The notes beneath the pieces were generated by a model that was not told the DNA's origin, searched no databases, and saw nothing but the letters and a program-made list of their open reading frames with translations. This document shows positions 3,621-20,352 of a stretch of DNA of 64,000 bases, in pieces (the stretch's first letter is position 1; each line of letters begins with the position of its first letter). Position numbers and translations under genes: made by a program. The DNA comes from Pontiella agarivorans (GTDB taxonomy: Bacteria > Verrucomicrobiota > Kiritimatiellia > Kiritimatiellales > Pontiellaceae). The stretch lies in NCBI RefSeq assembly GCF_034531395.1, contig NZ_JARVCO010000012.1, forward strand, positions 1,178,001 to 1,242,000, read 5' to 3'.

Positions 3621-5174
3621 GTGAAGAGTGCTCTGTTTTTAATGACCCTGCTCAGTGCAGGGATTTCGATTGCCGCGGGCCGGCAGCCGACGGATTTGTC
3701 GCGTCCCAATGTGGTTGTTATTTACGGCGACGACGTAGGGTTTGCGGATATCGGTGTAAACGGCGCAGAAATGATTCCGACGCCGAATATTGACCGGCTG
3801 GCTGCCGAGGGCATTAATTTCAGCGATGGCCACAGTTCGGCTGCCACGTGCACGCCTTCGCGCTTTTCCATGCTGACGGGCATTCATGCGTTTCGTTATA
3901 ATGCCCGCGTACTGCCGCCCGATGCCCCGCTGCTTATTCCGCTTGATAAACTGACGCTTCCGCAGCTGTTTAGCAGAGCCGGCTATCAGACTGCTGTCAT
4001 CGGGAAATGGCATCTGGGCATTGGAACACCCGGTAAAAAAGTGAACTGGAATGGCGATGTAAAGCCTGGGCCGATTGAAATCGGCTTTGATTATTCTTTT
4101 CTCCTGCCTTCCACGAACGACCGTGTACCTTGTGTTTTTCTGAAAAACCATCGTGTGCTGAATCTCGATCCCGCTGATCCGCTCTATGTGGGGAAAACTC
4201 TTGCCGATGTGCAGGTGCCGGGGTCAACCCCGTATCCGGATGGACAAACCAATCGCGAAGCGATGACTTATTATCAAAGCACTCACGGTCACGATAACAG
4301 TGTGATTAACGGCATCGGCCGTATCGGCTATCAGTCCGGCGGAAAAGCTGCGCTTTGGAATGATGAAACCATTTCTGATGTTTTTGTGGATGAAATGAAA
4401 GCGTATATCGCTGACCACAAAGACGCGCCGTTTTTCCTGTATTTTGCTTCGCAGGATGTTCATGTTCCGCGTGCACCGAATCCGCGGTTTAAAGGGGCTA
4501 CCAAACTGGGCTACCGCGGTGATGCCATGGTTCAGTTTGATTGGACGGTGGGCCAGATTCTTCAGACGTTGGAAGAGCACGGCCTTTCGGAGAATACAAT
4601 CGTGATTTTCTCCTCCGACAACGGACCGGTTTATGACGATGGTTATGATGATGGAACGACGCTGAAAACGTCTATTGGCGAAAATGACCGCGGCCACGAT
4701 GCTTCCGGAAAATGGAGTGGCGGAAAGTATCAGATCTACGAGGGAGGCACCCGTGTTCCGCTCATCATAAAATGGCCGGCGCGCATAAAGCCCGGCACCT
4801 CCGATGCCACGGTCAATCAGATCGATTTTATGGCTTCTTTTGCAGAGCTTCTTGGTGTGGAGCTGGACGATGACGAAGGCATCGACAGTCGCAATACTTT
4901 GGATGCCTTTATGGGACGTGATTCTGAGGGGCTTGAATATATGATTGAAGAGGCCACCGGTCTTGCTCTGCGGAACGGTGACTGGAAATATATCGAGCCG
5001 CAGAAGGTTAAATATCCCAAAGGTCTTGCTCCGTTCGACGCCACCTTGTTCAACCTTAAGGATGATCCGGCTGAAACCAAAAATCTTGCCGATCAGTATC
5101 CTGAGAAAGTTGAAGAGATGTCCAAGTTGCTGGAAAAAATGAAACAGCACAACGGCATCCGCGCGATCCTGTAG
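3621..5174 (+). CDS. Secreted type I (S1) sulfatase
   Basis: Formylglycine-dependent arylsulfatase-fold enzyme expected to remove ester sulfate from a galactan sugar. The GTG start at 3621 is chosen because GGAGG lies 5 bases upstream. A signal peptide covers ~1-20. Metal-binding Asp pair 37-38 (YGDDVG), C77-T-P-S-R as the formylglycine site (Cys type), GKWHLG and SSDNGP follow in the normal order. Length 517 aa is normal. It resembles the sulfatase at 18793-20352 closely, including a shared DRVPxVF[LI]KN insert, so the two probably belong to the same S1 subfamily. The subfamily and the position of the sulfate removed cannot be told by eye. The maturase is not in the window. Confidence 0.93.
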   Translation: MKSALFLMTLLSAGISIAAGRQPTDLSRPNVVVIYGDDVGFADIGVNGAEMIPTPNIDRLAAEGINFSDGHSSAATCTPSRFSMLTGIHAFRYNARVLPPDAPLLIPLDKLTLPQLFSRAGYQTAVIGKWHLGIGTPGKKVNWNGDVKPGPIEIGFDYSFLLPSTNDRVPCVFLKNHRVLNLDPADPLYVGKTLADVQVPGSTPYPDGQTNREAMTYYQSTHGHDNSVINGIGRIGYQSGGKAALWNDETISDVFVDEMKAYIADHKDAPFFLYFASQDVHVPRAPNPRFKGATKLGYRGDAMVQFDWTVGQILQTLEEHGLSENTIVIFSSDNGPVYDDGYDDGTTLKTSIGENDRGHDASGKWSGGKYQIYEGGTRVPLIIKWPARIKPGTSDATVNQIDFMASFAELLGVELDDDEGIDSRNTLDAFMGRDSEGLEYMIEEATGLALRNGDWKYIEPQKVKYPKGLAPFDATLFNLKDDPAETKNLADQYPEKVEEMSKLLEKMKQHNGIRAIL

Positions 5175-5501: not shown

Positions 5502-8500
5502 ATGAAAAGCTCTAATCAGTGGACCGCATTATTGCTGTCCGGAATGACATTGGCGGCACAGGCTGGGCTGGAAGAGGATGCCCGGGCAAAAATGGCGGCG
5601 CTGTCGAATTTGGTGGTGCAGGCGGAGGGACAGGGTATTCATACGCTGCAGGAGCGGACGATGCTGCGTACTGCAGATATTTTTCTTTTCTATGCTGACT
5701 GGGATGAAGCGAATACATCGGTGAATTCCAATATTTTTTCCAAGTCAGGATCATTCAAAGATGATCCGGAGTATTGGGCGGAATATATGCCGGAGTTTGA
5801 GCGGCAGGATGTAATCCACATGCTGGACAAAAGTACGTCGAATTTGACCCGGTTGATTAATGGGGAAATTTCGCGTAAGCCGGCCCCGGAGATTGACTGG
5901 GCTCAAGTGACACATGACGGGGATCAGCTTACGTTTAACGGCCGGCCGGCCTTTGTGGCGGATTATACCTGGAAGCCGGGGGATGACTGGTTGACGGAGT
6001 ATCATGGCAATCAGGATGGGTTTTATTTTGATCCGAATAAGATTTCGAATGCTTCAGGGGATATTAATCAGTGGACGATGAATGATCTGACGAATAAATC
6101 GTCCGGCACACTGGGTTTTATCTTTCTGGGAAATAAAGCGGCACCGAACTGGGCGGAAGCCGAATACGGTCCGGGCTTTCAGATGCGGGAAGATACGTAT
6201 ACCGGGTATGATATCGATAATCCGGGAGCGCGGGAGATGCTGAGTTTTCTGTTCGATGCCTGCGTGCCTTTCATGAGCGGAAAAAAGTTTTCTGAACTGG
6301 GTTATATGCTCTGCAATGAACCGCATTTTTACACTACCAAGGAAAAAGATTCGATGGAGCCGGATGACTGGGGCTGGGCGCGCGGACCGGTTTCGGAATA
6401 TACGATGGATAAATTCCGGGTGTGGCTGCAGGATCGGCATGCAACAGTTGCCGACCTCAATGCACTATGGGGAACGTCGTTTGCAGATTTTGATGCGGTG
6501 GATCTGGACGTTCCGATTTATGAAGGACTGCAGGGTACGCCGCAGTGGTATGACTGGGTGCGGTTCAATCAGTGGCGGGTGACGGAGTGGTATACCTGGG
6601 TTAAAAGTGCAATTCGCGCGAATGATGCGGCGGCGAAAGTGCACCTGAAAGTTATGCCGAATCTGTGGAGTGAAAACGACCGTGGGCATGGGTTGGATAT
6701 GGAGGCATTGACCGAGCTGAGTGAAATCATCGGAAATGACGCCGGGGCGGATCACACCAACTGGTGGGGCAAGGCGCTGTGGTGGCAGGGGACCTATGCA
6801 TTTGATTGGCGGGAAATGTGTATGTCATACGATTTTTTCAAGTCGGTCAGTCCTGAAAAAATCACTTTTAATTCGGAGGCACACTATCTTTCCACCGGCG
6901 GTTCGCGGGATCTTTTTCTGGATCCGGCCTATGCGCGGGCGACCTGCTGGCTGGCGCATCTGCACGGGCTGACTGCGAGCCAGATCTGGTTCTGGGCACG
7001 GCAGAGTGATGGGTCGCCGCGTAAGGGGGTGAACGTGGGTACCGGATGGTGGGGATCGAATAATTTCCAGCCGCAGGTCGTGAATGAAGTCGCACAGACG
7101 ATGTTGGACCTGAATACCTTTTCGGAAGAGGTGATGGCCATGCAGCGCCAGCGTAAACCGATTCGTATTTTCTATTCCGAGACGTCGGCGATTAACAAGC
7201 CTGAATATATGGATGAAATATTTGAGCTTTATGAAAAACTCTATTTTGAAGGCGTTCCGGTCGGATTTGTGACAGAAAATATTCTGACGAAGCAGGGGCA
7301 CGACCTGTGGGATGTAGTGCTGGTGCATGAAACTGAATTTGCAACGACCAATCAGGTGGCGGCCCTGCAGGCATATCTCGACGGCGGGGGCTCGGTGGTG
7401 ATCGATTCTGACAGTCTTCGGAAGGATGAATACGGTCGGGGGATCGGTGGGCTGGCCCCTTCTGCCGGTACGCTCATTTCTGCGGTTTCGCTGGCTGATA
7501 TGAAAGAGCAGGCGCTGGCTCGGGTGGACCTGCCGCCGGTGGAGATTTCTGAAACCAATGGGATTGGAACTGAAGGTTGTGCGTGGAAATGTGTGACAAA
7601 TGAAGCGGGCAATGCGGTGGTTTCCATTGTGAATCTGGGTCATTCGGCGGCATCATTGTCTCTCGTTATGCGAAACGGGGAGGGGGCGGTTTGTACGGAC
7701 ATGCTGACCGGGGAGGCGCATTCGTCTTCTTTCGTGCTGGAACCTTTCGAGATGCGTCTGTTGGAGGTGGTTTCTCAGGATGTTGTGCCGCAACTTTCAA
7801 CGATTGTGCAGTGGGGGAAACCGGGCGGGGATGACGGTATTGTGACCAATACACAGAACTTTAACCCTTATCCGGCGTTCACTACATATACTTATGGAAA
7901 TACGGCTTCACCGCTGCCGGGACCGGATTATTATCCGGATAGCCGTGGTCGCTCTCCGGTGTTTAATCACGCATCGAAAAATGCATTTAATGTTAAGCAG
8001 ATTACTGATGGCGGTACGCTGGGCGATTATATTACTACGGCAAAAAATGATCCGGATTACGCGGCTATGGTGGTGTGGGAGAATTATCTTACCAATGCCT
8101 ATATTCTGAAGAGCCTTGAGATTGAAACCCGGGTGAATAATTCAGCCGATACCGATTCGCAGTTCCGCTGGCTGGTGCGTAAGATGGATGGCCAATGGTA
8201 TGCCAGTGATGCGGTGGATACGAGCGATACGTTTACACTTTTTGCTGAGGAAGATCCGGAAAGTCTGAGCTGGTTTGATTTTACGCCGCATGTCGGTGGT
8301 GTGGCGTCGGTGGGGGGAAGTGCCTCTATTACTCTGGAGGATATTAATGCGGTGGGTTATCTGGCCACTTTTCAACAATTATCGACCAATATAAAATACC
8401 GTGCCAGTGAAACCCGTTATTTTAAAGCTACGGCATTTACAGCACTTCCTCAGAACGGGTGGGATAATTTTGTTATTGCATATGGGCTGAGCGGGGATCC

Positions 8501-8840
8501 GAATGATGATGCGGATGCCAACGGGGTCAGTGATTTTGTGGAGTATGCCTTGGGGGGGAATCCTACGAATTCATCAGATCGCGGCATTGCGCCGGATGTT
8601 GAATATCAACTCGATGATTCGGTTCACTATTATCATGTTGCGCTGACCAATCCGAATTCAGGCGTTTCCTATAATGTGGAGTGGGCGACGAATCTGGTGG
8701 TTGGCGGATGGACCAACAGTTTTGAATCGATCACGAATCGCCCGTCGGGCTATGCCGGAATGGATAAATTGGATTATAAGCTGAATGGTGACGCTGAAAA
8801 GCAGCTCTTTTTCCGGCTTAAGGTAGAGGCGGCCCTGTAA
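5502..8840 (+). CDS. Secreted multidomain clan GH-A glycosidase (GH42/GH50-like) with QWG and C-terminal modules
   Basis: Signal peptide ~1-20. Residues ~130-600 look like a GH-A barrel of the beta-galactosidase GH42/GH50 type. The probable acid/base is Glu273 in the LCNEPHF segment and the probable nucleophile Glu459 in FNSEAHYL. A GATase/trimerisation-like Rossmann region follows (~590-690, VVLVHETEF, LDGGGSVVID), then a small beta domain. One QWG domain (~765-970) and the EYALGGNP...FFRLKV C-terminal module (~985-1112) complete it, as in the protein ending at 1863. Likely role: an exo- or endo-acting beta-galactosidase or agarase-like enzyme at the cell surface. The exact GH family was not resolved by eye, and agar-specific GH50 and beta-galactosidase GH42 remain open. 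Unusually long (1112 aa) because of the appended modules. It stands alone with its own leader. Confidence 0.7.
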   Translation: MKSSNQWTALLLSGMTLAAQAGLEEDARAKMAALSNLVVQAEGQGIHTLQERTMLRTADIFLFYADWDEANTSVNSNIFSKSGSFKDDPEYWAEYMPEFERQDVIHMLDKSTSNLTRLINGEISRKPAPEIDWAQVTHDGDQLTFNGRPAFVADYTWKPGDDWLTEYHGNQDGFYFDPNKISNASGDINQWTMNDLTNKSSGTLGFIFLGNKAAPNWAEAEYGPGFQMREDTYTGYDIDNPGAREMLSFLFDACVPFMSGKKFSELGYMLCNEPHFYTTKEKDSMEPDDWGWARGPVSEYTMDKFRVWLQDRHATVADLNALWGTSFADFDAVDLDVPIYEGLQGTPQWYDWVRFNQWRVTEWYTWVKSAIRANDAAAKVHLKVMPNLWSENDRGHGLDMEALTELSEIIGNDAGADHTNWWGKALWWQGTYAFDWREMCMSYDFFKSVSPEKITFNSEAHYLSTGGSRDLFLDPAYARATCWLAHLHGLTASQIWFWARQSDGSPRKGVNVGTGWWGSNNFQPQVVNEVAQTMLDLNTFSEEVMAMQRQRKPIRIFYSETSAINKPEYMDEIFELYEKLYFEGVPVGFVTENILTKQGHDLWDVVLVHETEFATTNQVAALQAYLDGGGSVVIDSDSLRKDEYGRGIGGLAPSAGTLISAVSLADMKEQALARVDLPPVEISETNGIGTEGCAWKCVTNEAGNAVVSIVNLGHSAASLSLVMRNGEGAVCTDMLTGEAHSSSFVLEPFEMRLLEVVSQDVVPQLSTIVQWGKPGGDDGIVTNTQNFNPYPAFTTYTYGNTASPLPGPDYYPDSRGRSPVFNHASKNAFNVKQITDGGTLGDYITTAKNDPDYAAMVVWENYLTNAYILKSLEIETRVNNSADTDSQFRWLVRKMDGQWYASDAVDTSDTFTLFAEEDPESLSWFDFTPHVGGVASVGGSASITLEDINAVGYLATFQQLSTNIKYRASETRYFKATAFTALPQNGWDNFVIAYGLSGDPNDDADANGVSDFVEYALGGNPTNSSDRGIAPDVEYQLDDSVHYYHVALTNPNSGVSYNVEWATNLVVGGWTNSFESITNRPSGYAGMDKLDYKLNGDAEKQLFFRLKVEAAL

Positions 8841-9070: not shown

Positions 9071-12000
9071 ATGAAGAGGAATACCTTGTTCATTGCTCTG
9101 CTTGCCGGCTCGGGGATGGTTTCCGCAGCGTTGGGGCAGAGTATCATTACCGACGATTTTTCGACCTATTCGGATGGAGATCTGGCGGGGCAGGGCGATT
9201 GGCTGGAAGTGGCGGCTTCCGGTGCTGGCGCCGGAGCATTCAACGTGACGAACAACATGGCGGTTTCTAACGGGGATGGCAGTTCGGGACTCGATTATTA
9301 TGTAAGTCTGGGAAATACGCCGTCGGGCAATGCGATGGATGATGAATGGGACGGCAGCATGGAGTGCTCGTTCAACTGGAGCGGAACCAAATGGCGCCAT
9401 GGGGCATTCTTTAAAATCGGTACTTCAACGACTGTGACCAATGGGCTCAGGAATGCCAGTTCCGATGATGTGCCGCTGATTATTGAAACCGGCTGGCCGG
9501 ATAAACTTTATATCGGTACGGCGGATGCAAGCGGAACGTTTGTAGAGTGTCTGGCTGTAACTGCAGATGATCTGGGGATGACGATCGGAAGTGAGCTGGA
9601 TTCGGACCCATTGGAAATCACGTGGAATGTGCGGAAAACGCGGGACAGCGGATTTTATACCATCACCGCTTCGCTGATGAATACGCTGACCGGTTCGAAT
9701 TATCCGGGTTCAACCGTTTCTGTGGAGAAGCCGGGGGCTTATGCGGCCAGTGACCCGTATTACATGATGGGGATGGCCAGGGGCTACAGCTGGTGGGATG
9801 AGGATGTTCAGTACTGGAAAGGGATTCAAATTGATTCGCTCAGTCTGATCAAATCAGCAGGCAATGCTCCGGTTCTGGTTGCTACAGCGGTTACTGCTAT
9901 GGGAGAAGATAGTGCGGTCAATCTGACCTGGGATCCGGTTACTGAAGCGGAATCGTATGATATTCTCCGGTCTGATACTGAAGTCGGCGGTTATACTGCT
10001 GTATCAGGAGGAAGTGGAATTACAACAAACCGTTTTACGGACAGCACGGCCATCAACGGCAATGTTTACTGGTATAAAGTGGTGTCTAAAGCTGCGGGTG
10101 CCGCGGATGTGGAATCTGAGCCGGTTTCGGGAACGCCACTGATGATTGTTTCCGGGACTTTTCTGGATACCACATTTGCAGCTTCAGATAATCCGTCATA
10201 TGTAGATGGCGATTTGGCCGGGCAGAATGGATGGGAACAACTTTCCGCATCGCTTCCGGGTGCGTTTGAAATTGATTCTTCCGGTGACGGCGTTGCTGAA
10301 ACATATGGACTTACAGCTACCGGCGGAGTTCATCAGGTGTATTATACCGCGCCCACCTCGAATGAGGTAACGGCCACTTGGAGCGGTACTGTGGTCTTCT
10401 CTCTCTCAACAGAAGCGGATGGGTTTAAGACGAATGTCACAGATGGTGTAACCAATGTGTATGAAGTTGCTCGGCTGGGTAATGGATACCAGACCTTCAT
10501 GTTCGGTCTTACATCGAATCCGGATACGGTTCTGGATCCGACTGATGGTGACAAGGAAGTCGGAGGCGATGATGATGTGCTGGTTTCAGCCCGCGTAGGA
10601 GGGGATGATGGACGCGTGGATATCAGTATCAACAACTTCAACTGGGCTGAAAATATCATGCTGGCTCTGAACCGCGAACAGCTGGGCTGGGACCCTGCCG
10701 GTATGGATATCAGTGCTACTAATGGAGCGGATTTTGCGACGGATACCATCACGCTGGACTATGTGATCCGTAAATCGACGGATAACCTTGCCTATATGGG
10801 GGTGTGTACGGCAACGGTTGCCGGAGTGACCTATGAAGGACAATGGCATACTACGGCCGATGATAATGAGTGGGGCAAGCCCACGGTTGTATGGGGTGAA
10901 CCGCTCGTTTATTTCGGTATGAGTCGGGGTGCACCGAGTGCCGAACAGCAGGTGGATGTGTCGGTTGATTCCCTTTCCGTAACCTATACCTCATCCAGTG
11001 ATCCCGTTATGCTTCCGCCATATAGTCTGGACAGTGCTCTGGGCAATCTTGAGATTACCGTGGACTGGAAAAATTTCGGTGAGGAGTTGAGCTATAATAT
11101 CTACCGTGCAGAAACGAATGGTGGACCGTATGTGTTGCTGAGCAGCGTGCCGGCCACCGATAAGTTTTTCCTGGACACCGGATTGACGGATCTTCGTTCG
11201 TATTTCTATAAAGTTTCTTCCGTTTATCCGGCGGGGGAAAGTGCATTGTCTGATCCATTGGTGGTTCGAGCGCTGGGCCGGACGCTTCATCTTGAGTGGG
11301 GCGGTGAAGTTGCATTGTCGGCGGGCAATCACTGGGCAACTGGACTAAGCGCACCCACGGTTTCCGGTGAGTTGAATTACTGGCAGGGTGAAGGAGTCGA
11401 GGCGTACTCAGTTATCGGGGCATCGGATTCATGGTATGCCAATCCGCCGCATCCGGATCTCAAAGCGGTGATTCAGGCTCCGACCAACAGTGCCTATGAG
11501 GCGAACCGGCCGAATGTGGAGTTGCGCTGGAATGGTGGGGCCCGCTTCCGTTTCGCGGAAGGTGCATCGGCCATGTATTGGGTGGAGTGTCCTTCGCTGG
11601 ATAATACAGTAAACGATCTTTCCGGAGAATGGGACAAATACCAGTGGTACTGTTTCCCTGCGGTTCGCAACGGTTCGACCTGGTATGTAGCCGAAAGTTC
11701 GTTGAATGCTGATCGGAGTCTGGATCTGGGCGATGAGCGATGGACGACGGTGACTCTGGCATCAGCTACAGATACCAACCTTATGGTGCGGGAAGGAACG
11801 TATGTCACCGGTGATGAAATCGGCTTTGATGATATCAATGCCTTCGGCTTTTTTGCTGAAAATGCAGCGGCCAGTAATGATGCCTGGGTGGATCACATGC
11901 GGTTGCTCTACGGCAGTTCACCATCTGTGTTCCAAAAGTGGTGCGATGAGCAGGGGATCTACAATGAGGATGCGGTGGAAAGTGCTGATCTGGACGGCGA

Positions 12001-12331
12001 TGGCGCTGATAACCTATACGAATGGGGCATGGGTGGCGACCCACTGGATGGGACGGATATCGGCATTACGCAACGCAGAATGTATATGGATGGAGATGAC
12101 TTTGTGTACATCTATCCGCGCCTGAAAGGGGTGGCTCCGACCTATACCCTCAAGGCGGCCGACAGCCTGGTGATTGGAGGCTTCGATGAGACGCTGGTGG
12201 AAGGGGTGGACTTTACCGAAGTTTCTGCCGGTGGTGACTGGGCGGGTTGGGCTCCCGAGTTTGAAGCGGTAACAAATGCCATTCCAACTGCGGGCCGTTC
12301 CATCCGTTTCTTCAAAACGGTTGTCGAATAG
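9071..12331 (+). CDS. Large secreted FnIII / jelly-roll-like protein of unknown function
   Basis: The ATG at 9071 follows AAAGGGAG. Signal peptide ~1-23. Two similar ~210-residue lectin-like blocks begin DDFSTYSDGDLAGQ (~28) and SYVDGDLAGQNGW (~375), each followed by a fibronectin type III-like domain (~278-360 and ~650-735). A divergent relative of the QWG domain lies at ~735-960 (LEWGGEV, TWYVAESS, DDINAFGFFAEN). The C-terminal module has DLDGDGADN and EWGMGGDP. No catalytic residues were recognised. Probable extracellular glycan-binding or scaffold protein (inference). The gene has a 230-base leader without a recognised signal and is closed by a terminator. Confidence 0.7.
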   Translation: MKRNTLFIALLAGSGMVSAALGQSIITDDFSTYSDGDLAGQGDWLEVAASGAGAGAFNVTNNMAVSNGDGSSGLDYYVSLGNTPSGNAMDDEWDGSMECSFNWSGTKWRHGAFFKIGTSTTVTNGLRNASSDDVPLIIETGWPDKLYIGTADASGTFVECLAVTADDLGMTIGSELDSDPLEITWNVRKTRDSGFYTITASLMNTLTGSNYPGSTVSVEKPGAYAASDPYYMMGMARGYSWWDEDVQYWKGIQIDSLSLIKSAGNAPVLVATAVTAMGEDSAVNLTWDPVTEAESYDILRSDTEVGGYTAVSGGSGITTNRFTDSTAINGNVYWYKVVSKAAGAADVESEPVSGTPLMIVSGTFLDTTFAASDNPSYVDGDLAGQNGWEQLSASLPGAFEIDSSGDGVAETYGLTATGGVHQVYYTAPTSNEVTATWSGTVVFSLSTEADGFKTNVTDGVTNVYEVARLGNGYQTFMFGLTSNPDTVLDPTDGDKEVGGDDDVLVSARVGGDDGRVDISINNFNWAENIMLALNREQLGWDPAGMDISATNGADFATDTITLDYVIRKSTDNLAYMGVCTATVAGVTYEGQWHTTADDNEWGKPTVVWGEPLVYFGMSRGAPSAEQQVDVSVDSLSVTYTSSSDPVMLPPYSLDSALGNLEITVDWKNFGEELSYNIYRAETNGGPYVLLSSVPATDKFFLDTGLTDLRSYFYKVSSVYPAGESALSDPLVVRALGRTLHLEWGGEVALSAGNHWATGLSAPTVSGELNYWQGEGVEAYSVIGASDSWYANPPHPDLKAVIQAPTNSAYEANRPNVELRWNGGARFRFAEGASAMYWVECPSLDNTVNDLSGEWDKYQWYCFPAVRNGSTWYVAESSLNADRSLDLGDERWTTVTLASATDTNLMVREGTYVTGDEIGFDDINAFGFFAENAAASNDAWVDHMRLLYGSSPSVFQKWCDEQGIYNEDAVESADLDGDGADNLYEWGMGGDPLDGTDIGITQRRMYMDGDDFVYIYPRLKGVAPTYTLKAADSLVIGGFDETLVEGVDFTEVSAGGDWAGWAPEFEAVTNAIPTAGRSIRFFKTVVE

Positions 12332-12439: not shown

Positions 12440-13585
12440 TCACACGCGCATACGTTTGCGGTATGTGCTGGGGCTGCAGCCTGTGACCTGTTTGAAAACC
12501 TGAGCAAGGTAGTTGTAGGTGGTGTAACCGCATTCTTCAGCAATAATTTGAAGCGGTTTGTCGGTTTCAACGAGCAGTTTGCGGGCATGATTGATGCGGA
12601 TCTGTCTGATTTCATCGAACGGTGTTCGACCGAAGGCTTTCTGGAAGCGGCGCTCAAGTGTACGTCGGCTCATGGGGATGGATTTGAGAATATCGTCCAT
12701 GGTGAGGGGTTCAAAGGCGTGGGCTTTAAGATAATTTACAAGGGGGACCAGTGCAGGGTCATCGACTGCGAGGGTGTCGGTGGAGAGGTGTTCCCTGATG
12801 CCAAGAGGGGGTAGGAATGTCGTTTTGTGTGGGACATCTTCACCAAGCATCATCCGGTGCAGCAGTTTTGCGGCTTTATAGCCTATCTGTTCTGTGGGAA
12901 GCAGAATGCCGGAAAGCGGCGGATTGCAAGCGTAGCACATCAGTTCATCATAGCTTCCACTCAGTACGGCGACGTCGTGCGGGACTTTTACGCCGGCGGT
13001 GCGGCAGGCTTCGATGATTTGGCGGCCGATGCCCTCGGCATAGGCGAGGATGCCGACCGGTTTCGGGAGTTCTGCGAGCCAGTGAGTCAATTTTTCCTGA
13101 AGATTACGTTCATGACGTGTGCTGAAAAAGCCGGGGCATTGGAATCCGCGTGTGTGAAGAACCCGGCGGTATTCTTCTGCATACCAGGATACGTTGGCCA
13201 GATAGTCCGGTGCGGCAAACGCCAGATTTTTAAAACCGCGTTCAATGAAGAAATCGGCGGCCATGGCAGTGGAAATGGAGTCATCGGTCCTGACATAAGG
13301 GAAGGTGTAGCCCTCTAGATAGCTGTCCTCGACACTCACGGCCGGGATCTTCCGCTGTTTGAGTTCCTCGGCCAAAGAGGGGGAGATGATTCTGCCAATG
13401 ACGCCGTGCCCTTCCCAGTCGGCAGGAAGCTGTTTAATTTCAACCGGTGCCGTGGGGCGGATCCATACATCCCAGAAACCCGCTTCGCTGGCATAGGATA
13501 GAATGCCTTTAAGAATTTTTCGGGCCCAGTCGTTAGGCGTCCCCATCATGATGGCAATACGCGGCGTCTCATTTGAGTGTAACAT
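12440..13585 (-). CDS. XylR-type AraC-family transcription regulator
   Basis: 381 aa from the ATG at 13585-13583, chosen because LacI-type sensor homology begins immediately there (RIAIMMGTPNDWARK); the frame is open further upstream but encodes no recognisable domain. The N-terminal ~270 residues form a periplasmic-binding-protein-like sugar sensor (VRTDDSISTAMAADFF, VLSGSYDELMCYA, GYKAAKLL). The C-terminal ~100 residues are a double-helix AraC DNA-binding domain (MSRRTLERRFQKAFG, IAEECGYTTYNYLAQVF). It is transcribed away from the 13850-20352 gene set, which is the usual arrangement for a local activator. Repeated sequence elements lie between the two (see 13615-13780). Inferred role: induction of the adjacent set by a galactan-derived sugar. 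Confidence 0.88.
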   Translation of the reverse strand: MLHSNETPRIAIMMGTPNDWARKILKGILSYASEAGFWDVWIRPTAPVEIKQLPADWEGHGVIGRIISPSLAEELKQRKIPAVSVEDSYLEGYTFPYVRTDDSISTAMAADFFIERGFKNLAFAAPDYLANVSWYAEEYRRVLHTRGFQCPGFFSTRHERNLQEKLTHWLAELPKPVGILAYAEGIGRQIIEACRTAGVKVPHDVAVLSGSYDELMCYACNPPLSGILLPTEQIGYKAAKLLHRMMLGEDVPHKTTFLPPLGIREHLSTDTLAVDDPALVPLVNYLKAHAFEPLTMDDILKSIPMSRRTLERRFQKAFGRTPFDEIRQIRINHARKLLVETDKPLQIIAEECGYTTYNYLAQVFKQVTGCSPSTYRKRMRV

Positions 13586-13614
13586 GTGGCAATATATCGC
13601 ATGTATATTCGTGA

Positions 13615-13752
13615 TTACGCAAATAGTTTTCAACGTACGGTGTCGAAACATGTGCGAAATTCGGATGTAAAAAAATGCGTTCCGATTCCGAGGTAGTGAA
13701 GATTTCGCAGTTTTTGATAGGTACCGATTTCGTATGTTTATTGCGCAAATAG
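13615..13752 (+). promoter_or_regulatory. Candidate operator: repeated ATTRCGCAAATAG in the divergent intergenic region
   Basis: A 13-base element ATTACGCAAATAG (13614-13626) recurs as ATTGCGCAAATAG (13740-13752). One copy lies about 30 bases upstream of the regulator start and the other about 100 bases upstream of the TonB-like gene. Direct repeats of this kind suit AraC/XylR regulators. Function is inferred from position and repetition. Confidence 0.45.
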
Positions 13753-13764
13753 CTATATTCCCCA

Positions 13765-13780
13765 TACGCAACAGTGCGTA
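13765..13780. promoter_or_regulatory. Perfect inverted repeat TACGCA-N4-TGCGTA
   Basis: A 6-base perfect palindrome with a 4-base spacer lies 13 bases beyond the second ATTRCGCAAATAG copy and 70 bases upstream of the 13850 start. The half-site ACGCA is shared with that repeat, so it may be a further regulator contact or part of the promoter region. Confidence 0.4.
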
Positions 13781-13849
13781 AAACTTATAGTGTAAAAAAA
13801 GAGAAAAGGTTGCACCTGCGGTGTTGATTATTTGATTTGGGGAATGATG

Positions 13850-15733
13850 ATGAAAAAGAAAATGCGTTCAAAAAAAGTGAATAAGGGAGCTCCAAGCGGC
13901 TTCATTATCAGTATTGCTATTCATGCGGCGGCTTTCGCGCTCGCCGGGATGCTGGTGGTTTTTAATGTCGTTCAAAAGGAAGAGAAAAAATTTGTTCCGC
14001 CCAAACCGGTTGATCGGCCGAAAATGAAATTGAAGAAGCCGAAGGTGAAGGTCAAAAAATCGGTAAAACCGAGATCGACTACGCGCATCGTTACCAAGGT
14101 GCAACGTGCTTCCATGCCGGATATCCAGCTTCCGGAAATGTCGGGTATGGCGGATGGTCTCATTGGTGATGTCGGCGGATTTGATTTGGGCTCATTGGAT
14201 GTTGCGCCATCAGTGCTCGGTGATGATGTGTCAGCAGGTAATGACCTGGTTGGTACATTCTATACAATAATGCGTGATCGGACCGGAAGACCCATTACCT
14301 ATAGCGGTGATATTTTAAAAGACCTTGTTCACCGCTTTTATAAGAGCGGATGGAAAACATCGACGCTGTCGCGTTATTACCGTTCTCCCAAAAAACTATA
14401 CGGCTCTATGGTTGTGGTTCCTGAAATGTTCTCCAACGTTGCTCCGTTGTCATTTGGCGAAAGCGACCGTGACAGTCAGTACTGGATAGTGCACTACAAA
14501 GGACAGATTGTGTATCCGGAAGATATTACGTTCCGTTTTGTCTGTCAGGCCGATATGACCATTGGCGTGAAAGTCGATAACGAGATGGTGCTCGGCGGCT
14601 GGTGGAAGGGCACCGAAGAAGAGTATATGGGCGATGTCTGGCGCTCTTCTTCAGCGGATAACCGGAAATGGTGGATGGGCAACTGGACAGCGGTGGTTGG
14701 CGATTGGGTGACGCTGAAGGCCAATGAGCCGCAGGATATCGAAATTCTGATTTCGGATGCCGGTGGCCTGTGCTGTCTGATGCTGGCCATCCAGGAAGAA
14801 GGGGTGGACTATGAAACGCGGCCGGGGGGGGGGCCGCGTTTGCCTGCGTTCAAAACAGCATATCCTTCACATGATTTGCAGGATATGATCATGCGGGACA
14901 TGGTTCCGGGTGAAATTTCACTCACCAACGGTCCGGTATTTAATGATTTTGCAAGCAATGCGTCGGAGCAGAATGAGGCCTCCCCGCTGTCAGATGATTC
15001 AACGGTTGAGATGGTGTCCGCAGAAACGGTTGAACCGGCTATTCCTGAAAAAATATCAAAGCTGAGAAGTTGGAGTACGAGCGGTGGCGGGGTGCTTGAA
15101 GCGGAATATGTTACCCGGATGGGCGATAAAGTGGTGCTGAAAGATGCAAAAGGTAAACAGCGTAAAATCGCACTGAGCATGCTCTCTGCAGAGGACCTGA
15201 ACTATATTGAACTCTGCAATCCCCCGGATCTGCAGGTGTCGGTCAGCAACAAAGAGGATCCTGTATTCGCTTACAGTGATGGCGTTAAGGATGAAGTGGT
15301 TGGATATGATGCGGTTTACACGGGAAAAATCCGGAAGAAGAGTCCGAAGGCCTATCCTCATGAATTGACCGCAGAATTTTATGCCATCGGCGTGCAGAAT
15401 TATGCGGATACCTATCTGCTGTTGGATCGTCAGGAATCAACCTTTGTGCTGGATGAAAATCAAAAGGAGTACAATTTTTCAGGGAACACGGTTCATTTGC
15501 GCAAGATTGAGCCGCGGGAATGGGAGTCAGCTGATTTTACCGTGCGTGGAGAAAAAGATTACGGCTATCTTATTGTGGTGAAGGATAAACGCGGTGAGAT
15601 CATTGCGAAAAAAGCAACTGCTGGCTGGATTGAAGACGCCTATGAAAAACTTAAGGATTTCCCGGTAGGGCGTTATTTGAATGAGCAGGGTGAGCGCGTC
15701 TTTCCTGAGGGGCCGCCACGGGCCCGGTACTGA
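13850..15733 (+). CDS. TonB-like membrane-anchored protein with PA14-like and SHD1-like domains
   Basis: 627 aa from the third of three consecutive ATGs, 7 bases after GGGG (TTG at 13832 is less likely). A basic N-terminus is followed by one transmembrane helix (~17-41) holding S21-x-x-x-H25, as in the TonB anchor. Next comes a periplasmic Pro/Lys segment (FVPPKPVDRPKMKLKKPK) and a short SMPDIQLPEMSG linker. Residues ~130-315 look PA14-like (WIVHYKGQIVYPEDITFRF, VDNEMVLGG). Residues ~400-455 look like an SHD1 (SLA1 homology 1) domain (LEAEYV, VVLKDAKGK, LSAEDLNYIE). The final ~150-residue domain ends GERVFP. No TonB C-terminal domain is present. A paralogue lies at 31909-33786. The first ~95 residues of the pair are nearly identical, while the rest has diverged. 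Function unknown; an ExbBD-coupled envelope role is inference. Confidence 0.75.
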   Translation: MKKKMRSKKVNKGAPSGFIISIAIHAAAFALAGMLVVFNVVQKEEKKFVPPKPVDRPKMKLKKPKVKVKKSVKPRSTTRIVTKVQRASMPDIQLPEMSGMADGLIGDVGGFDLGSLDVAPSVLGDDVSAGNDLVGTFYTIMRDRTGRPITYSGDILKDLVHRFYKSGWKTSTLSRYYRSPKKLYGSMVVVPEMFSNVAPLSFGESDRDSQYWIVHYKGQIVYPEDITFRFVCQADMTIGVKVDNEMVLGGWWKGTEEEYMGDVWRSSSADNRKWWMGNWTAVVGDWVTLKANEPQDIEILISDAGGLCCLMLAIQEEGVDYETRPGGGPRLPAFKTAYPSHDLQDMIMRDMVPGEISLTNGPVFNDFASNASEQNEASPLSDDSTVEMVSAETVEPAIPEKISKLRSWSTSGGGVLEAEYVTRMGDKVVLKDAKGKQRKIALSMLSAEDLNYIELCNPPDLQVSVSNKEDPVFAYSDGVKDEVVGYDAVYTGKIRKKSPKAYPHELTAEFYAIGVQNYADTYLLLDRQESTFVLDENQKEYNFSGNTVHLRKIEPREWESADFTVRGEKDYGYLIVVKDKRGEIIAKKATAGWIEDAYEKLKDFPVGRYLNEQGERVFPEGPPRARY

Positions 15734-15790: not shown

Positions 15791-15899
15791 CGGTTAATGA
15801 TTTTCTTGGCGGTTTTTTATATGATTTTGGCAAGATCGTTTGTGTTCAACTTGTAAATCCGCCGTATACTGTTTGGCTTTAAATGAAAAAGGATATTCT

Positions 15900-17696
15900 A
15901 TGAACTACAGAAGAGTAAAAACGGCGGTGGCCTTGTTTCTGGCCATCGGACCGTTATGTGTTCAGGCTTTGGAAGTGATTCGTTTTGAACCGACGAAGGG
16001 TGATCGTATGCCCGAGTTGCGTGCAGCCTTGGAACAGGTGAAGGATCGTGATGTCAAACTGGTATTTGCAGCGGGGGAATACCGCTTTCGGCCGGATTTT
16101 GCACTTCATCGGTATTGCTATATCACCAACCATGATAACGGGTTGAAAAATATTGCTTTTCTGTTCGATGGTTTCGATTCCGTTGAAATCGAGGGAAATG
16201 GTTCCGAGTTTATTTTCCATGGACAGATGTTTCCGTTCCGCTTTGAAAACTGCAGCCGTGTTACGGTTAAAGATGTGGTTGTAGATTGGGATATTCCGTT
16301 CTGTTTTCAGGGAGAAGTGGTCGCCGTTAACGAAGAGGAAGGCTGGCGCGAGATCAAACCGGCAACGGATGGATTCAGCTGGACGATCCGGAATAATCAT
16401 TTGCGCTTTCCGGATATTGACGGCTTTTCCTATAATCTCGTTGGATCAACCCTGGCTTTTAACAAAGAGACGAAAGAGGTTGCATACGGGGCCTGGGACT
16501 TTACCAGCCAGCCCGAAAAAGTTCAGAAACTGAAAAATGGAAATCTGCGTTTTTACGAAAAGCTTAAGCATTGGCCGAAGGTGGGACAGATCCTTAATTC
16601 CAAAGGAAAGAAAAACCGTTATGCGCCGGCTTTTCAGGGAATCTCCTCTTCAAATCTGCTGTTTGAAAATGTGGTGATTCATCATGCGCTGGGCATGGGA
16701 TTTCTGCTGGAACGTTGCGACACCGGAACGATCCGGGGCGGCGGGGTCTATGTCCGGGAAGGTTCCGAACGTGTGGTTTCGATCATCGCCGATGGAACGC
16801 ACTTTGCGAACTGCAAAGGGGAAATTCTGGTGGAAAATGCTCGTTTCAAAGGCATGCTTGATGATTCCACTAACGTGCATGGAACCTATGTTGAAGTGGA
16901 TAAGGTCCTTGATCAGCACAGCGTGCGCGTCAGACTGATGCATTTTCAGCAGCTCGGTTTTGAATTTGCCGGAGTCGGCGACGAATGCTGGTTTATTCAT
17001 CACCCTGATCCGTCCCGCGGTGAAGTGAATACGGTATCCAGAGTCAAAGTGCTGAATGACCGATTCATTGAACTGACGTTTACAAATCCGGTTCCCGGAA
17101 AACTGAAGAAAGGCGATGTGCTGGAAAATAAGACCTGGAATCCGACGTTCACCATGCGCGGAAACCATTTTGAAAAGCACCGCGCCCGGAATGTGGTGAT
17201 TAAAACGCCGCGGCCGATTCTGATTGAGAACAATGATTTTTCGTCACACATGTCGGCCGTTTTTCTGCGTGGTGAAACATTCCACTGGTTTGAATCCGGT
17301 GCCGTTGAGGATGTGCTGATTCAGCATAACCGATTTAAAGACTGTGCTTCGAGCGGGATGGAGCATGCGGTGCTCAATGTGACGCCCCGGCTTGGAAAAA
17401 CTTTTGATGATACGATTCCTTATGATCGGAATATTCGTTTTATCAATAATACTATTGAAACATTTGATAACCGGATTGTCTGGCTCGACCGGGTGGACGG
17501 ATTTGTTTTTAAAGGTAATACCATCAAACAGACCGATACTTTCAAGCCGATGCGTGATGCCTATCTGTTTGACCTGAAGAACTGCCGTCATGTGGAAATC
17601 TCCGGAAATACCTATATCGGAAAAAACAAAAAAGGGGTGCTTGCTGATGGGGCCACGAAGCCGACACTGTCTGTGAAAGATAACAGGGGATTCTAA
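15900..17696 (+). CDS. Secreted GH110 alpha-galactosidase
   Basis: Right-handed parallel beta-helix glycosidase of family GH110, whose members remove alpha-1,3-linked D-galactose; marine members have been linked to algal galactans. The ATG at 15900 is chosen for the AAAAGGA site just upstream and the signal peptide (~1-23); the frame extends to 15840 without a start context. Family hallmarks are VEIEGNGSEFIFHG in the first helix turns, the paired acidic motif DDSTNVHG (residues 321-328), and repeated N-x-[FT] rungs (NNDFSSHMSAV, GNTIKQT). 598 aa is the usual size. It is followed 6 bases later by an aldose 1-epimerase and then a sulfatase, so this is a small operon for releasing and handling alpha-galactose. 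Confidence 0.85.
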   Translation: MNYRRVKTAVALFLAIGPLCVQALEVIRFEPTKGDRMPELRAALEQVKDRDVKLVFAAGEYRFRPDFALHRYCYITNHDNGLKNIAFLFDGFDSVEIEGNGSEFIFHGQMFPFRFENCSRVTVKDVVVDWDIPFCFQGEVVAVNEEEGWREIKPATDGFSWTIRNNHLRFPDIDGFSYNLVGSTLAFNKETKEVAYGAWDFTSQPEKVQKLKNGNLRFYEKLKHWPKVGQILNSKGKKNRYAPAFQGISSSNLLFENVVIHHALGMGFLLERCDTGTIRGGGVYVREGSERVVSIIADGTHFANCKGEILVENARFKGMLDDSTNVHGTYVEVDKVLDQHSVRVRLMHFQQLGFEFAGVGDECWFIHHPDPSRGEVNTVSRVKVLNDRFIELTFTNPVPGKLKKGDVLENKTWNPTFTMRGNHFEKHRARNVVIKTPRPILIENNDFSSHMSAVFLRGETFHWFESGAVEDVLIQHNRFKDCASSGMEHAVLNVTPRLGKTFDDTIPYDRNIRFINNTIETFDNRIVWLDRVDGFVFKGNTIKQTDTFKPMRDAYLFDLKNCRHVEISGNTYIGKNKKGVLADGATKPTLSVKDNRGF

Positions 17697-17702
17697 ATCA
17701 TT

Positions 17703-18773
17703 ATGGTGAAGGAGTGTACAGTGCTCGGTTTTGCGGTGTTGCTGTCCGGTTGTGTTTCTCACAAAACGGTTGAGCACAGACCCGGGCACTATACCCTCAG
17801 AAACTCCGGTGGGATGGAGGTTCAACTGGCCTCCTATGGCGCGCGTATCACTTCCATAAACGTGCCGGATCGCGATGGCAGCATGGCTGATGTTGTGCTG
17901 GGTTATGAGGATATCAATGCCTATAAAACCGCGCAAAAGAAACCCTATTTCGGCTGTGTTGTCGGGCGGTATGCCGGGCGGATTGCCAATGGAAAATTTG
18001 CCCTCGATGGCCGGGAATATGAATTGGCAGCAAATAACGGTCCGAACCATCTGCACGGCGGCATGGTTGGGTTTGACAAAGTCGAATGGACCGGCGCTTC
18101 CACGCATAACAGCGTCAGCTTCAGCTATGTTTCAAGAGATGGGGAAGAGGGATATCCCGGCACCCTGCAGGTTCAGGTTATATATACGCTGACCGATGCT
18201 GATGAGTTGATCATTCAGTATCGGGCTGCGACGGATAAAGCGACACCGATCAATCTGACGAATCATACCTATTTCAATCTGGCGGGCGAGGGGGCGTCGA
18301 CGGTGCTGAATCATGCGTTGCGAATCGATGCAGACTGTATTCTTGAAACCGATGAGTTTTCGATTCCAACCGGCAGAAAACTTCCCGTGTCCGGAACTCC
18401 GTTTGATTTTCTCCGGGCAAAGGCAGTCGGTCGCGATATAGATGCCGAACATCCTCAGCTGCAGATCGGGATGGGGTATGATCATACTTTTGTTCTTTCG
18501 GATGGCCCGGTTTCCGCCGAGCTGTATGATCCGGAATCCGGAAGATGTATGGAGGTCATTACCACGGAGCCCGGCATTCAACTTTATACCGCAAATTATC
18601 TGAGCGGTGATCTGGTGGGAAAGTCGGGTGAGCGTTACCGGAAGCGCAGTGCGCTGTGTCTGGAAACCCAGCATTTCCCGGACAGCCCGAATAAACCTGA
18701 ATTCCCGAATACCATTCTCCGGCCCGGAGAACATTTTGAATCGAAGACCATTTATCGTTTTTCTGTTCGTTAA
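17703..18773 (+). CDS. galM: Aldose 1-epimerase, lipoprotein
   Basis: Interconverts alpha and beta anomers of galactose or glucose. The N-terminus carries a lipobox (LLSGC), so it is predicted to be membrane-anchored outside the cytoplasm. Start choice is ambiguous: ATG 17703 gives a longer leader, while GTG 17721 has AAGGAG at the right distance but leaves only about 11 residues to the lipobox. Catalytic features are seen: His in NHLHGG, His in NHTYFNL, and the C-terminal Glu in CLETQHFPDSP. About 355 aa, normal for the family. Located between GH110 and a sulfatase, it likely acts on galactose freed outside the cytoplasmic membrane. Confidence 0.9.
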   Translation: MVKECTVLGFAVLLSGCVSHKTVEHRPGHYTLRNSGGMEVQLASYGARITSINVPDRDGSMADVVLGYEDINAYKTAQKKPYFGCVVGRYAGRIANGKFALDGREYELAANNGPNHLHGGMVGFDKVEWTGASTHNSVSFSYVSRDGEEGYPGTLQVQVIYTLTDADELIIQYRAATDKATPINLTNHTYFNLAGEGASTVLNHALRIDADCILETDEFSIPTGRKLPVSGTPFDFLRAKAVGRDIDAEHPQLQIGMGYDHTFVLSDGPVSAELYDPESGRCMEVITTEPGIQLYTANYLSGDLVGKSGERYRKRSALCLETQHFPDSPNKPEFPNTILRPGEHFESKTIYRFSVR

Positions 18774-18792
18774 GATAACAAGGAGAGATCCC

Positions 18793-20352
18793 ATGAAATT
18801 CAAATTCATTCTGTCGGCCTTGACGGCCGTCACGTTTTCCGCCGTTGCGGAAAAACCCAACATCGTTTTCATTTACGGCGATGATATCGGTTACGGTGAT
18901 TTCAGCTGCTATGGCGGAGAGGTCGATACGGCGGCCATAGACACGCTGGCGGAAGAGGGGGTTCGTTTCACCGGCGGCTACTGCACGGCGGCCACCTGTA
19001 CGCCATCACGTTATTCGATGCTGACCGGCGAATATGCCTTCCGGAATAAAGCCGCAAAAATTCTGCCGGGCAATGCGCCGCTGATCATCGATCCGTCGCG
19101 CCCGACCATTGCACAGTTTCTGGCAGATAACGGGTATAAAACCATGCTGTCCGGAAAATGGCATCTGGGCCTCGGTTCCCCGGATAAGCCGCTCGACTGG
19201 AACGGTGAAATTGCGCCGGGTCCCAGAGAAGTCGGCTTCCAGGAATCCTTCCACATGGCGGCAACGGCTGACCGTGTACCGTCGGTTTTCATTAAAAACG
19301 GCCGGGTTGTCGGGCTGGATCCCTCGGATCCGATTGAGGTTAATTATCAGAAACCGGTTGGAAATGATCCGACCGGCATCACGCATCCGCATCTGCTGAA
19401 ACTGCAGGCCGATGAACAGCATGGTAAAACCATTGTGAACGGGGTCAGTCGTATCGGTTGGATGAGCGGAGGAAACAGTGCCCGTTTTAAAGATGAGGAT
19501 ATGGCTGACACGTATCTTCGTAAGGCGCAGGCGTTTATTCGTGAAAACAAAGAAAATCCCTTTTTCCTCTATTATGCATTGAACGAAAATCATGTGCCGC
19601 GCGTGGTGCATCCTCGGTTCCAGGGCTCTACCAGTCTCGGGGCGCGCGGCGATGCGCTGGCGGTTTTTGACTGGTGTGTCGGCCGGATTGTTCAGACGCT
19701 GAAGGAAACCGGGCAGTATGAGAATACGCTGATTGTGGTGACCTCTGATAACGGTCCGGTTCTGTTCGACGGCTACTGGGAAGCGGGCATTGAGCGGCAG
19801 GGAACGCACGATGCTTCCGGCCCGTGGCGCGGCGGAAAATACAGCCGCTGGGAAGGCGGAACGCGTATTCCGTTCATCGTTACCTGGCCCGGAAAATCCA
19901 AACCGGGAATTTCCGATGCGATTGTGAGCCAGGTCGACCTTTATGCGTCCATTGCTGAGCTGATTGGAAAACCGATGCCGAAAAACGCGGGGCAGGACGG
20001 ACAGCCGCTGCTTTCCACATTTCTCGGGGAAAAGCTGGAAGGGCGGGAATATGTAATTCAGGAAGCCCTGACTCAGATTGCTGTGCGTAAAGGAAACTGG
20101 AAATATATTCCGCCGGGCAGCGTCACCGAACGCCTCGGCATCATGACCTGGAAAGCCGGAAGCGGGTGGAAAGAAACCACCGTTCCGGAACCGGGTCTGC
20201 TGTTCCATCTTACGGAAGATCCGGCCGAGGAACATAACCTCGCCGAAATCTATCCCAACCGCGTGAAAGAGATGAAAGCCATCATCGCCGAAGTGGCTCC
20301 CGAAAAAGCCGTTGGCGAAAAAGGGCTGAATAAAAAACAGCTCGGTTTCTGA
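18793..20352 (+). CDS. Secreted type I (S1) sulfatase
   Basis: 519 aa from the ATG at 18793, preceded by AAGGAGAG; the upstream extension to 18607 overlaps galM and is discarded. Signal peptide ~1-19. YGDDIG (metal Asp), C69-T-P-S-R formylglycine site, GKWHLG and TSDNGP are in place. It is the closest relative in the window of the sulfatase at 3621-5174, and both sit beside an alpha-galactosidase (GH27 there, GH110 here). That suggests the same or a related sulfated galactose, possibly desulfated before or after alpha-galactose removal (inference). Last gene of the GH110-galM-sulfatase unit. Confidence 0.93.
   Translation: MKFKFILSALTAVTFSAVAEKPNIVFIYGDDIGYGDFSCYGGEVDTAAIDTLAEEGVRFTGGYCTAATCTPSRYSMLTGEYAFRNKAAKILPGNAPLIIDPSRPTIAQFLADNGYKTMLSGKWHLGLGSPDKPLDWNGEIAPGPREVGFQESFHMAATADRVPSVFIKNGRVVGLDPSDPIEVNYQKPVGNDPTGITHPHLLKLQADEQHGKTIVNGVSRIGWMSGGNSARFKDEDMADTYLRKAQAFIRENKENPFFLYYALNENHVPRVVHPRFQGSTSLGARGDALAVFDWCVGRIVQTLKETGQYENTLIVVTSDNGPVLFDGYWEAGIERQGTHDASGPWRGGKYSRWEGGTRIPFIVTWPGKSKPGISDAIVSQVDLYASIAELIGKPMPKNAGQDGQPLLSTFLGEKLEGREYVIQEALTQIAVRKGNWKYIPPGSVTERLGIMTWKAGSGWKETTVPEPGLLFHLTEDPAEEHNLAEIYPNRVKEMKAIIAEVAPEKAVGEKGLNKKQLGF

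Follow-up and report, generated by a model that had tools for sequence, protein, structure and literature searches.

The protein encoded at positions 13850-15733 of the stretch of DNA analysed here comes from Pontiella agarivorans NLcol2, a marine anaerobe that grows on agar and carrageenan (PMC10880615). Its N-terminal anchor resembles that of TonB, and its remaining domains do not, which raises the question of whether such a protein is driven by an ExbBD-type motor and, if so, what its head pulls on. The preliminary description of this DNA had proposed an undescribed envelope system in which force is transmitted to a glycan-binding PA14 head, possibly as a replacement for SusCD–TonB uptake. 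We considered the protein in its 64-kb stretch (G000:C12:1178001-1242000, hereafter the window), in the whole genome (4,436,865 bases, 12 contigs), and among its homologues.

Domain architecture and the anchor motif

The gene and the parts of its product are as follows.

13838..13842, + strand: plausible ribosome-binding site GGGGA (by eye)
13850..15733, + strand: predicted PA14/SHD1-headed ExbBD-type force transducer, 627 aa (ORF open from the ATG at 13850)
13901..13972, + strand: anchor transmembrane helix, about residues 18-41 (sequence and alignments)
13910..13924, + strand: S-x-x-x-H, putative motor-binding motif, codons S21 to H25 (invariant in the 19-sequence alignment)
13976..14194, + strand: Pro/Lys-rich linker, residues 43-115 (sequence; paralogue comparison)
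14204..14965, + strand: PA14-fold domain, residues about 119-372 (AlphaFold2, Foldseek; Pfam sub-threshold)
15053..15214, + strand: SHD1 domain, residues 402-455 (Pfam; profile and structure match to Sla1 SHD1)
15224..15730, + strand: C-terminal beta-rich domain, residues 459-627 (AlphaFold2; without clear known family)

As the preliminary description had stated, the N-terminus carries a single strong hydrophobic segment, approximately residues 18-41, which holds S21 and H25 and is followed by the Pro/Lys-rich stretch. The SHD1-like domain named there lies above the Pfam cut-off (PF03983, 24.6 bits vs. 23.7, E 2.2e-5, residues 402-455), matches the yeast Sla1 SHD1 domain (2hbp) both by profile (E 5e-7) and by structure (1.5 A over 56 columns), and is matched at E <= 0.1 in 51 of 66 homologues. 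The search for TonB_C (PF03544) in the 627-aa protein gave no Pfam match, again in agreement with the earlier reading. SHD1 and the C-terminal domain were modelled by AlphaFold2 at pLDDT 93.2; past SHD1, Foldseek yielded weak matches and no convincing known relative. The best PDB match of the model of both domains together (window positions 15038-15730) is Amuc_1102 (MUL2A of Akkermansia), a weak one (E 1.9e-4, TM 0.25-0.29) that we regard as a lead only.

For the PA14 part, the Pfam score falls under the gathering cut-off (PF07691, 12.8-14.4 bits vs. 24), a match at E <= 0.1 is seen in five out of 70 homologues, and a sequence-profile search for a structural relative of this part found none. 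Nevertheless, the AlphaFold2 model of residues 115-374, built on 70 homologues, has the PA14 beta-sandwich fold at pLDDT 93.4, and a Foldseek search of the PDB ranks sugar-binding PA14 domains and adhesin domains of the flocculin/Epa kind first (E 9.4e-8). Since the model is confident and its top matches are PA14/flocculin lectins, we consider the PA14 assignment to be right, despite the sub-threshold Pfam score.

Glycan-binding PA14 members have an Asp-Asp (DcisD) calcium/sugar motif, which we placed on the present sequences by means of the alignment. At this putative site Asp-Asp is found in 41 of 70 homologues, and the window copy reads Asp-Met, the second Asp being replaced by Met; hence, glycan binding by this particular copy is uncertain. 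The protein is thus like the PA14/flocculin lectins, such as the MpAFP PA14 domain and the Epa adhesins, in its predicted fold (Foldseek E about 1e-7), and unlike them in its sequence score below the Pfam cut-off, its Asp-Met motif, and a location that is periplasmic by topology rather than at the cell surface.

Residues S21 and H25 are invariant across 19 diverse homologue N-halves (alignment A3), and the SxxxH pattern is kept in 116 anchor homologues among those scored, compared with two out of 80 unrelated N-terminal hydrophobic segments; therefore, the motif is not a chance occurrence. In E. coli TonB, Ser16 and His20 contact Ser34 and Trp38 of ExbB according to cryo-EM data, and the full motif is Ser-X3-His-X6-Leu-X3-Ser, of which the Leu and the second Ser are less conserved in Ton (PMC12215075). 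By eye, both are absent from the window protein (A32 at +7 and V36 at +11 from the His), and the ExbB proteins of the motor operons described below have V or F at the position of Trp38. Overall, the window protein is like E. coli TonB and TolA in topology and in the S-x-x-x-H of the anchor helix, and unlike them in having neither TonB_C nor the TolA C-terminal domain, in lying away from TonB-dependent receptors, and in lacking the Leu and second Ser of the SHLS motif.

Some anchored homologues depart from the pattern, with G/T-xxx-H in L088/L115, L150, and L228, and no His in L103, in the Akkermansia-type protein, and in a few other distant proteins. None of the His-less homologues (Akkermansia-type and others) was seen beside ExbB-ExbD-ExbD. 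One of them, L103:2624-3844, is a Pontiellaceae PA14 homologue beside sulfatases whose anchor has no Ser/His motif, possibly a motor-independent derivative. The Akkermansia mucin utilisation loci were considered as direct homologues and rejected, as the Akkermansia relative (G145) has lost the His and did not turn up in any motor operon.

Motor operons of the homologues

The proposed drive presupposes an ExbBD motor, and the profile search found 14 ExbD and 14 ExbB/MotA-family matches in the Pontiella genome; within the 64-kb window there is no ExbBD gene. The link to a motor comes from the homologues. Sixteen loci, spread over the sister family, Pontiellaceae, and other Verrucomicrobiota families, contain a tight TPR-x-ExbB-ExbD-ExbD operon whose last gene or genes encode the homologue. 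These homologues are either fused like the window protein or split into an anchor-PA14 protein and a secreted SHD1 protein. In the sister family and some Pontiellaceae, the order is TPR, small TPR/SHD-like, ExbB-ExbD-ExbD, with the anchor-PA14 gene last, or penultimate before an SHD1 gene. The full fused form is the last operon gene in L112, L115, L120, and L181, and more distant Verrucomicrobiota have the same operon order (L215, L218, L225, L228). Fourteen of the 16 loci have -4 to +14 nt between the second ExbD gene and the anchor gene; the gap is wider in L218 (17 nt) and L228 (43 nt).

A related class is already known: in the PVC group, vWA-headed transducers whose genes follow TPR-tolQ-tolR-tolR were published in 2025 (Mol Biol Evol, PMC12204202). 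The window protein shares with them one anchor helix with the Ser/His motif, the proline-rich linker, and a globular head without TonB_C; the shared operon order holds for the homologues in the 16 loci and not for the window copy itself. It differs in the head, which consists of the PA14 fold, SHD1, and the beta-rich domain and half of which may be a separate secreted protein, and in the multiplication of the PA14/SHD1-headed family to about a dozen or more dispersed copies. PA14 is not mentioned in the main text of that paper (PMC12204202), and no report of the PA14/SHD1-headed branch was found in the literature searched, subscription papers and supplements aside. The system called undescribed in the preliminary description is therefore new with respect to this branch, and not with respect to the vWA-headed one. 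An analogy in gene content only is offered by Fibrobacter succinogenes FSU_2397-2403, a single numbered run of genes for TPR/ExbB/ExbD/ExbD/TonB-family proteins that are more abundant on cellulose (PMC6851124).

Both heads occur together in L225, where ExbB-ExbD-ExbD is followed in tandem by a vWA-headed transducer and then a PA14-headed one. The two are identical at 135 of 145 residues over the helix and linker, and the vWA head carries DISGSM. The evidence that one and the same motor can carry PA14 in place of another head is most direct at this locus. The L225 pair (L225:6229-9241) also has an extra N-terminal domain, SAM-like by eye.

In the Pontiella genome, an anchor homologue with a vWA-like head (L019) directly follows ExbB-ExbD-ExbD. 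Four operons of the ExbB-ExbD-ExbD type, with TPR genes upstream, are located at G000:C12:235k, 703k, and 823k and at C7:16k; each has two unlike ExbDs, and the motors may be hetero-dimeric. At L058:4537-6033 (G000:C7, about 18 kb), the gene right after ExbD encodes an S-x-x-x-H anchor with a squalene-hopene-cyclase/pectate-lyase-like alpha-alpha domain (Pfam E 4e-14), possibly a third type of head on such motors.

Taken together, the motif, the operon order, and the swap of heads make coupling of the PA14-headed transducer to an ExbBD-type motor very likely, and the conservation of SxxxH and the direct operon linkage of homologues thus bear out the drive that had been suggested. As the window has no ExbBD gene and the Pontiella motor operons lie 22-480 kb from the nearest sulfatase, the pairing of the window copy with its motor would be in trans and is assumed here.

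Paralogues and catabolic neighbours

The genome has eight fused full-length copies and four split ones, in which the anchor-PA14 gene precedes a gene for an SHD1 protein with a signal peptide. These copies are dispersed and far from the motor operons. The genome also has at least four further anchor proteins with vWA-like heads (L017, L018, L019, L022), of which L017 alone has a sub-threshold Pfam vWA match. Identity among the fused copies falls from 79% in the linker and 63% in the helix region to 45% in PA14 and about 34-35% in SHD1 and the C-terminus, which points to a common base with diverging heads. The linker, as the most conserved segment among these paralogues, is a candidate motor box, following the D-box idea (PMC10907165). 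A stand-alone secreted SHD1 protein with a transducer-like C-terminal region is encoded at L020:273-902 (G000:C12:273-902), and no anchor gene adjoins it in the stretch seen. Fusion as a single event was rejected, as a quick tree of the fused and split forms, in which some of the "split" labels are truncated contigs, requires at least 10 state changes.

Two of the copies lie in the window, among the following genes.

1987..3573, + strand: alpha-galactosidase (Melibiase_2; Pfam)
3621..5174, + strand: sulfatase (Pfam)
5502..8840, + strand: GH42-like protein (Pfam)
9071..12331, + strand: large protein without clear family (Pfam; orthologue comparison)
12440..13771, - strand: XylR/AraC-type sugar regulator, divergent from the transducer (Pfam; 78 bp, longest ORF to ATG)
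15840..17696, + strand: GLAA-B-like beta-helix protein (alpha-1,3-galactosidase type), downstream neighbour of the transducer (Pfam)
18607..20352, + strand: sulfatase (Pfam)
29070..31880, + strand: GH2 enzyme directly upstream of the second transducer (Pfam)
31909..33786, + strand: second transducer of the same architecture, 46% identity (sequence comparison)
34167..35747, + strand: sulfatase directly downstream of the second transducer (G000:C12:1212245-1213411)

Across the genome, neighbours of the copies include GH2, agarase-CBM/GH42, and GLAA-B-like proteins, a histidine kinase, and AraC/XylR regulators. In a test with hand-entered coordinates and an assumed size for one small contig, a sulfatase (Pfam) lay within 10 kb at eight out of 11 transducer loci, compared with 29% of random positions (P 0.003), and the median distance to a sulfatase was 7.9 kb vs. 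32 kb (P 0.04). The ExbBD loci show no such proximity. Thus, the paralogues are scattered in a way that retains a catabolic link, being nearer to sulfatases than expected by chance.

A catabolic-locus gene of the window is kept near the orthologue of its transducer in three out of five species, an approximate count, as L108 and L083 possibly represent one species. These are the alpha-galactosidase orthologue directly downstream of the transducer in L082, the orthologues of the regulator and of the large neighbour (9071..12331) in L107, and the GLAA-B-like orthologue at 4 kb in L108; L106 keeps none of the window's catabolic genes, and L083 has only a distant sulfatase-type neighbour. Other copies occupy non-catabolic or housekeeping loci (L002, beside homoserine dehydrogenase, L012, and L104). 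The position beside the homoserine dehydrogenase gene is shared by two species (L002 and L104), with one copy fused and the other split.

The partial correlation between copy number and sulfatase number is 0.33 over 39 genomes, and 0.16, not significant, within the genus. The number of sulfatases was rejected as the driver of copy number across genomes, as genome size mostly accounts for the relation between the two.

Possible function of the PA14-headed transducers

On balance, we favour the interpretation that the protein is a PMF-driven force transducer whose PA14 head acts on glycans during polysaccharide use. It would belong with TonB and TolA among the inner-membrane force transducers, but carry a head of a new kind. 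Judging from the motif and the operons, S21 and H25 would dock the N-terminal helix on the ExbB pentamer, and the conserved linker, stretched over an estimated ~25 nm, would carry the push or pull of ExbB-ExbD-ExbD to the PA14 head with its SHD1 and C-terminal domains. In Pontiella, many exchangeable transducers may draw in trans on one set of TPR-ExbB-ExbD-ExbD motors; they would have been relocated to separate positions in the genome, frequently within sulfatase and glycosidase clusters. The likeliest job of the head would be to take hold of and shift either glycans themselves or an envelope partner loaded with them, while polysaccharide passes through the outer membrane or is kept in the periplasm.

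This has a bearing on a recognised gap. SusCD has been reported absent from Verrucomicrobiota (PMC8857213, PMC11980603), the passage of large polysaccharides through the outer membrane of such bacteria has been named as a question (PMC8857213), and periplasmic accumulation of polysaccharide has been reported (PMC13174399). In the Pontiella genome, a search for SusD/RagB (PF07980) gave no match, with a positive control in Bacteroides, and TonB-dependent receptors are few (four Plug matches above the cut-off). The absence of SusD is only consistent with the suggested replacement of SusCD–TonB uptake. There are four PF03544 matches in other proteins, with three TonB_C proteins above the cut-off; these canonical TonBs were rejected as partners, as the three sit in their own ExbBD/receptor clusters.

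A fairly unlikely alternative is that the same motor drives the transducer for envelope upkeep, that is, Tol-Pal-like tethering of the outer membrane or peptidoglycan, with the PA14 head binding an envelope glycan or protein. It would agree with the match of the motor-operon TPR protein to the YbgF/CpoB model TIGR02795 (91.4 bits vs. a cut-off of 90.1), with the copies beside housekeeping genes (L002, L012, L104), and with the many copies kept in the sulfatase-poor genomes G004, G002, and G015; as the genome has a separate Tol cluster, envelope roles would be additional. On the other hand, 12 or more copies, their dispersal, and the divergence of their heads are unlike an envelope-maintenance gene, and the proximity of sulfatases and the regulators and glycosidases as direct neighbours point elsewhere.

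Motor-driven adhesion, gliding, or surface display, in which the head pulls surface adhesins or exported enzymes, seems improbable. PA14/flocculin folds are those of adhesins, an AglZ-like gliding role has been suggested for the vWA branch (PMC12204202), and a PEP-CTERM protein adjoins one copy; however, because of the inner-membrane anchor and of the split partner that is merely secreted by a signal peptide, the head should be periplasmic, and the neighbourhoods of the copies showed no recognisable gliding or pilus genes. Finally, a purely passive role, as a periplasmic glycan-binding protein or sensor tethered to the membrane, with SxxxH as a relic devoid of energy coupling, would fit the motor-free window locus, the divergent sugar regulator adjoining its transducer, and the His-less relatives (L103, Akkermansia-type), but is very doubtful given the invariance of the motif where the family has expanded, the linker as the most conserved segment, and the homologues in motor operons.

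The glycan-directed force transducer can be taken further. It is conceivable, though speculative and on present evidence rather unlikely, that SusCD-less Verrucomicrobiota possess a shared proton-driven ExbB-ExbD-ExbD motor with interchangeable lectin-headed transducers, one per glycan locus, which reel polysaccharides into the periplasm; if true, this would be a polysaccharide-uptake engine working without TonB-dependent receptors. The family offers a concrete energised candidate for polysaccharide passage in SusCD-less bacteria: its residues (S21/H25) and motor operons are defined, and the fold predicted for its head is of a sugar-binding kind. It would also add a lectin fold, multiplied in the genomes of marine polysaccharide degraders, to the heads of motor-driven transducers known from TonB, TolA, and the vWA class.
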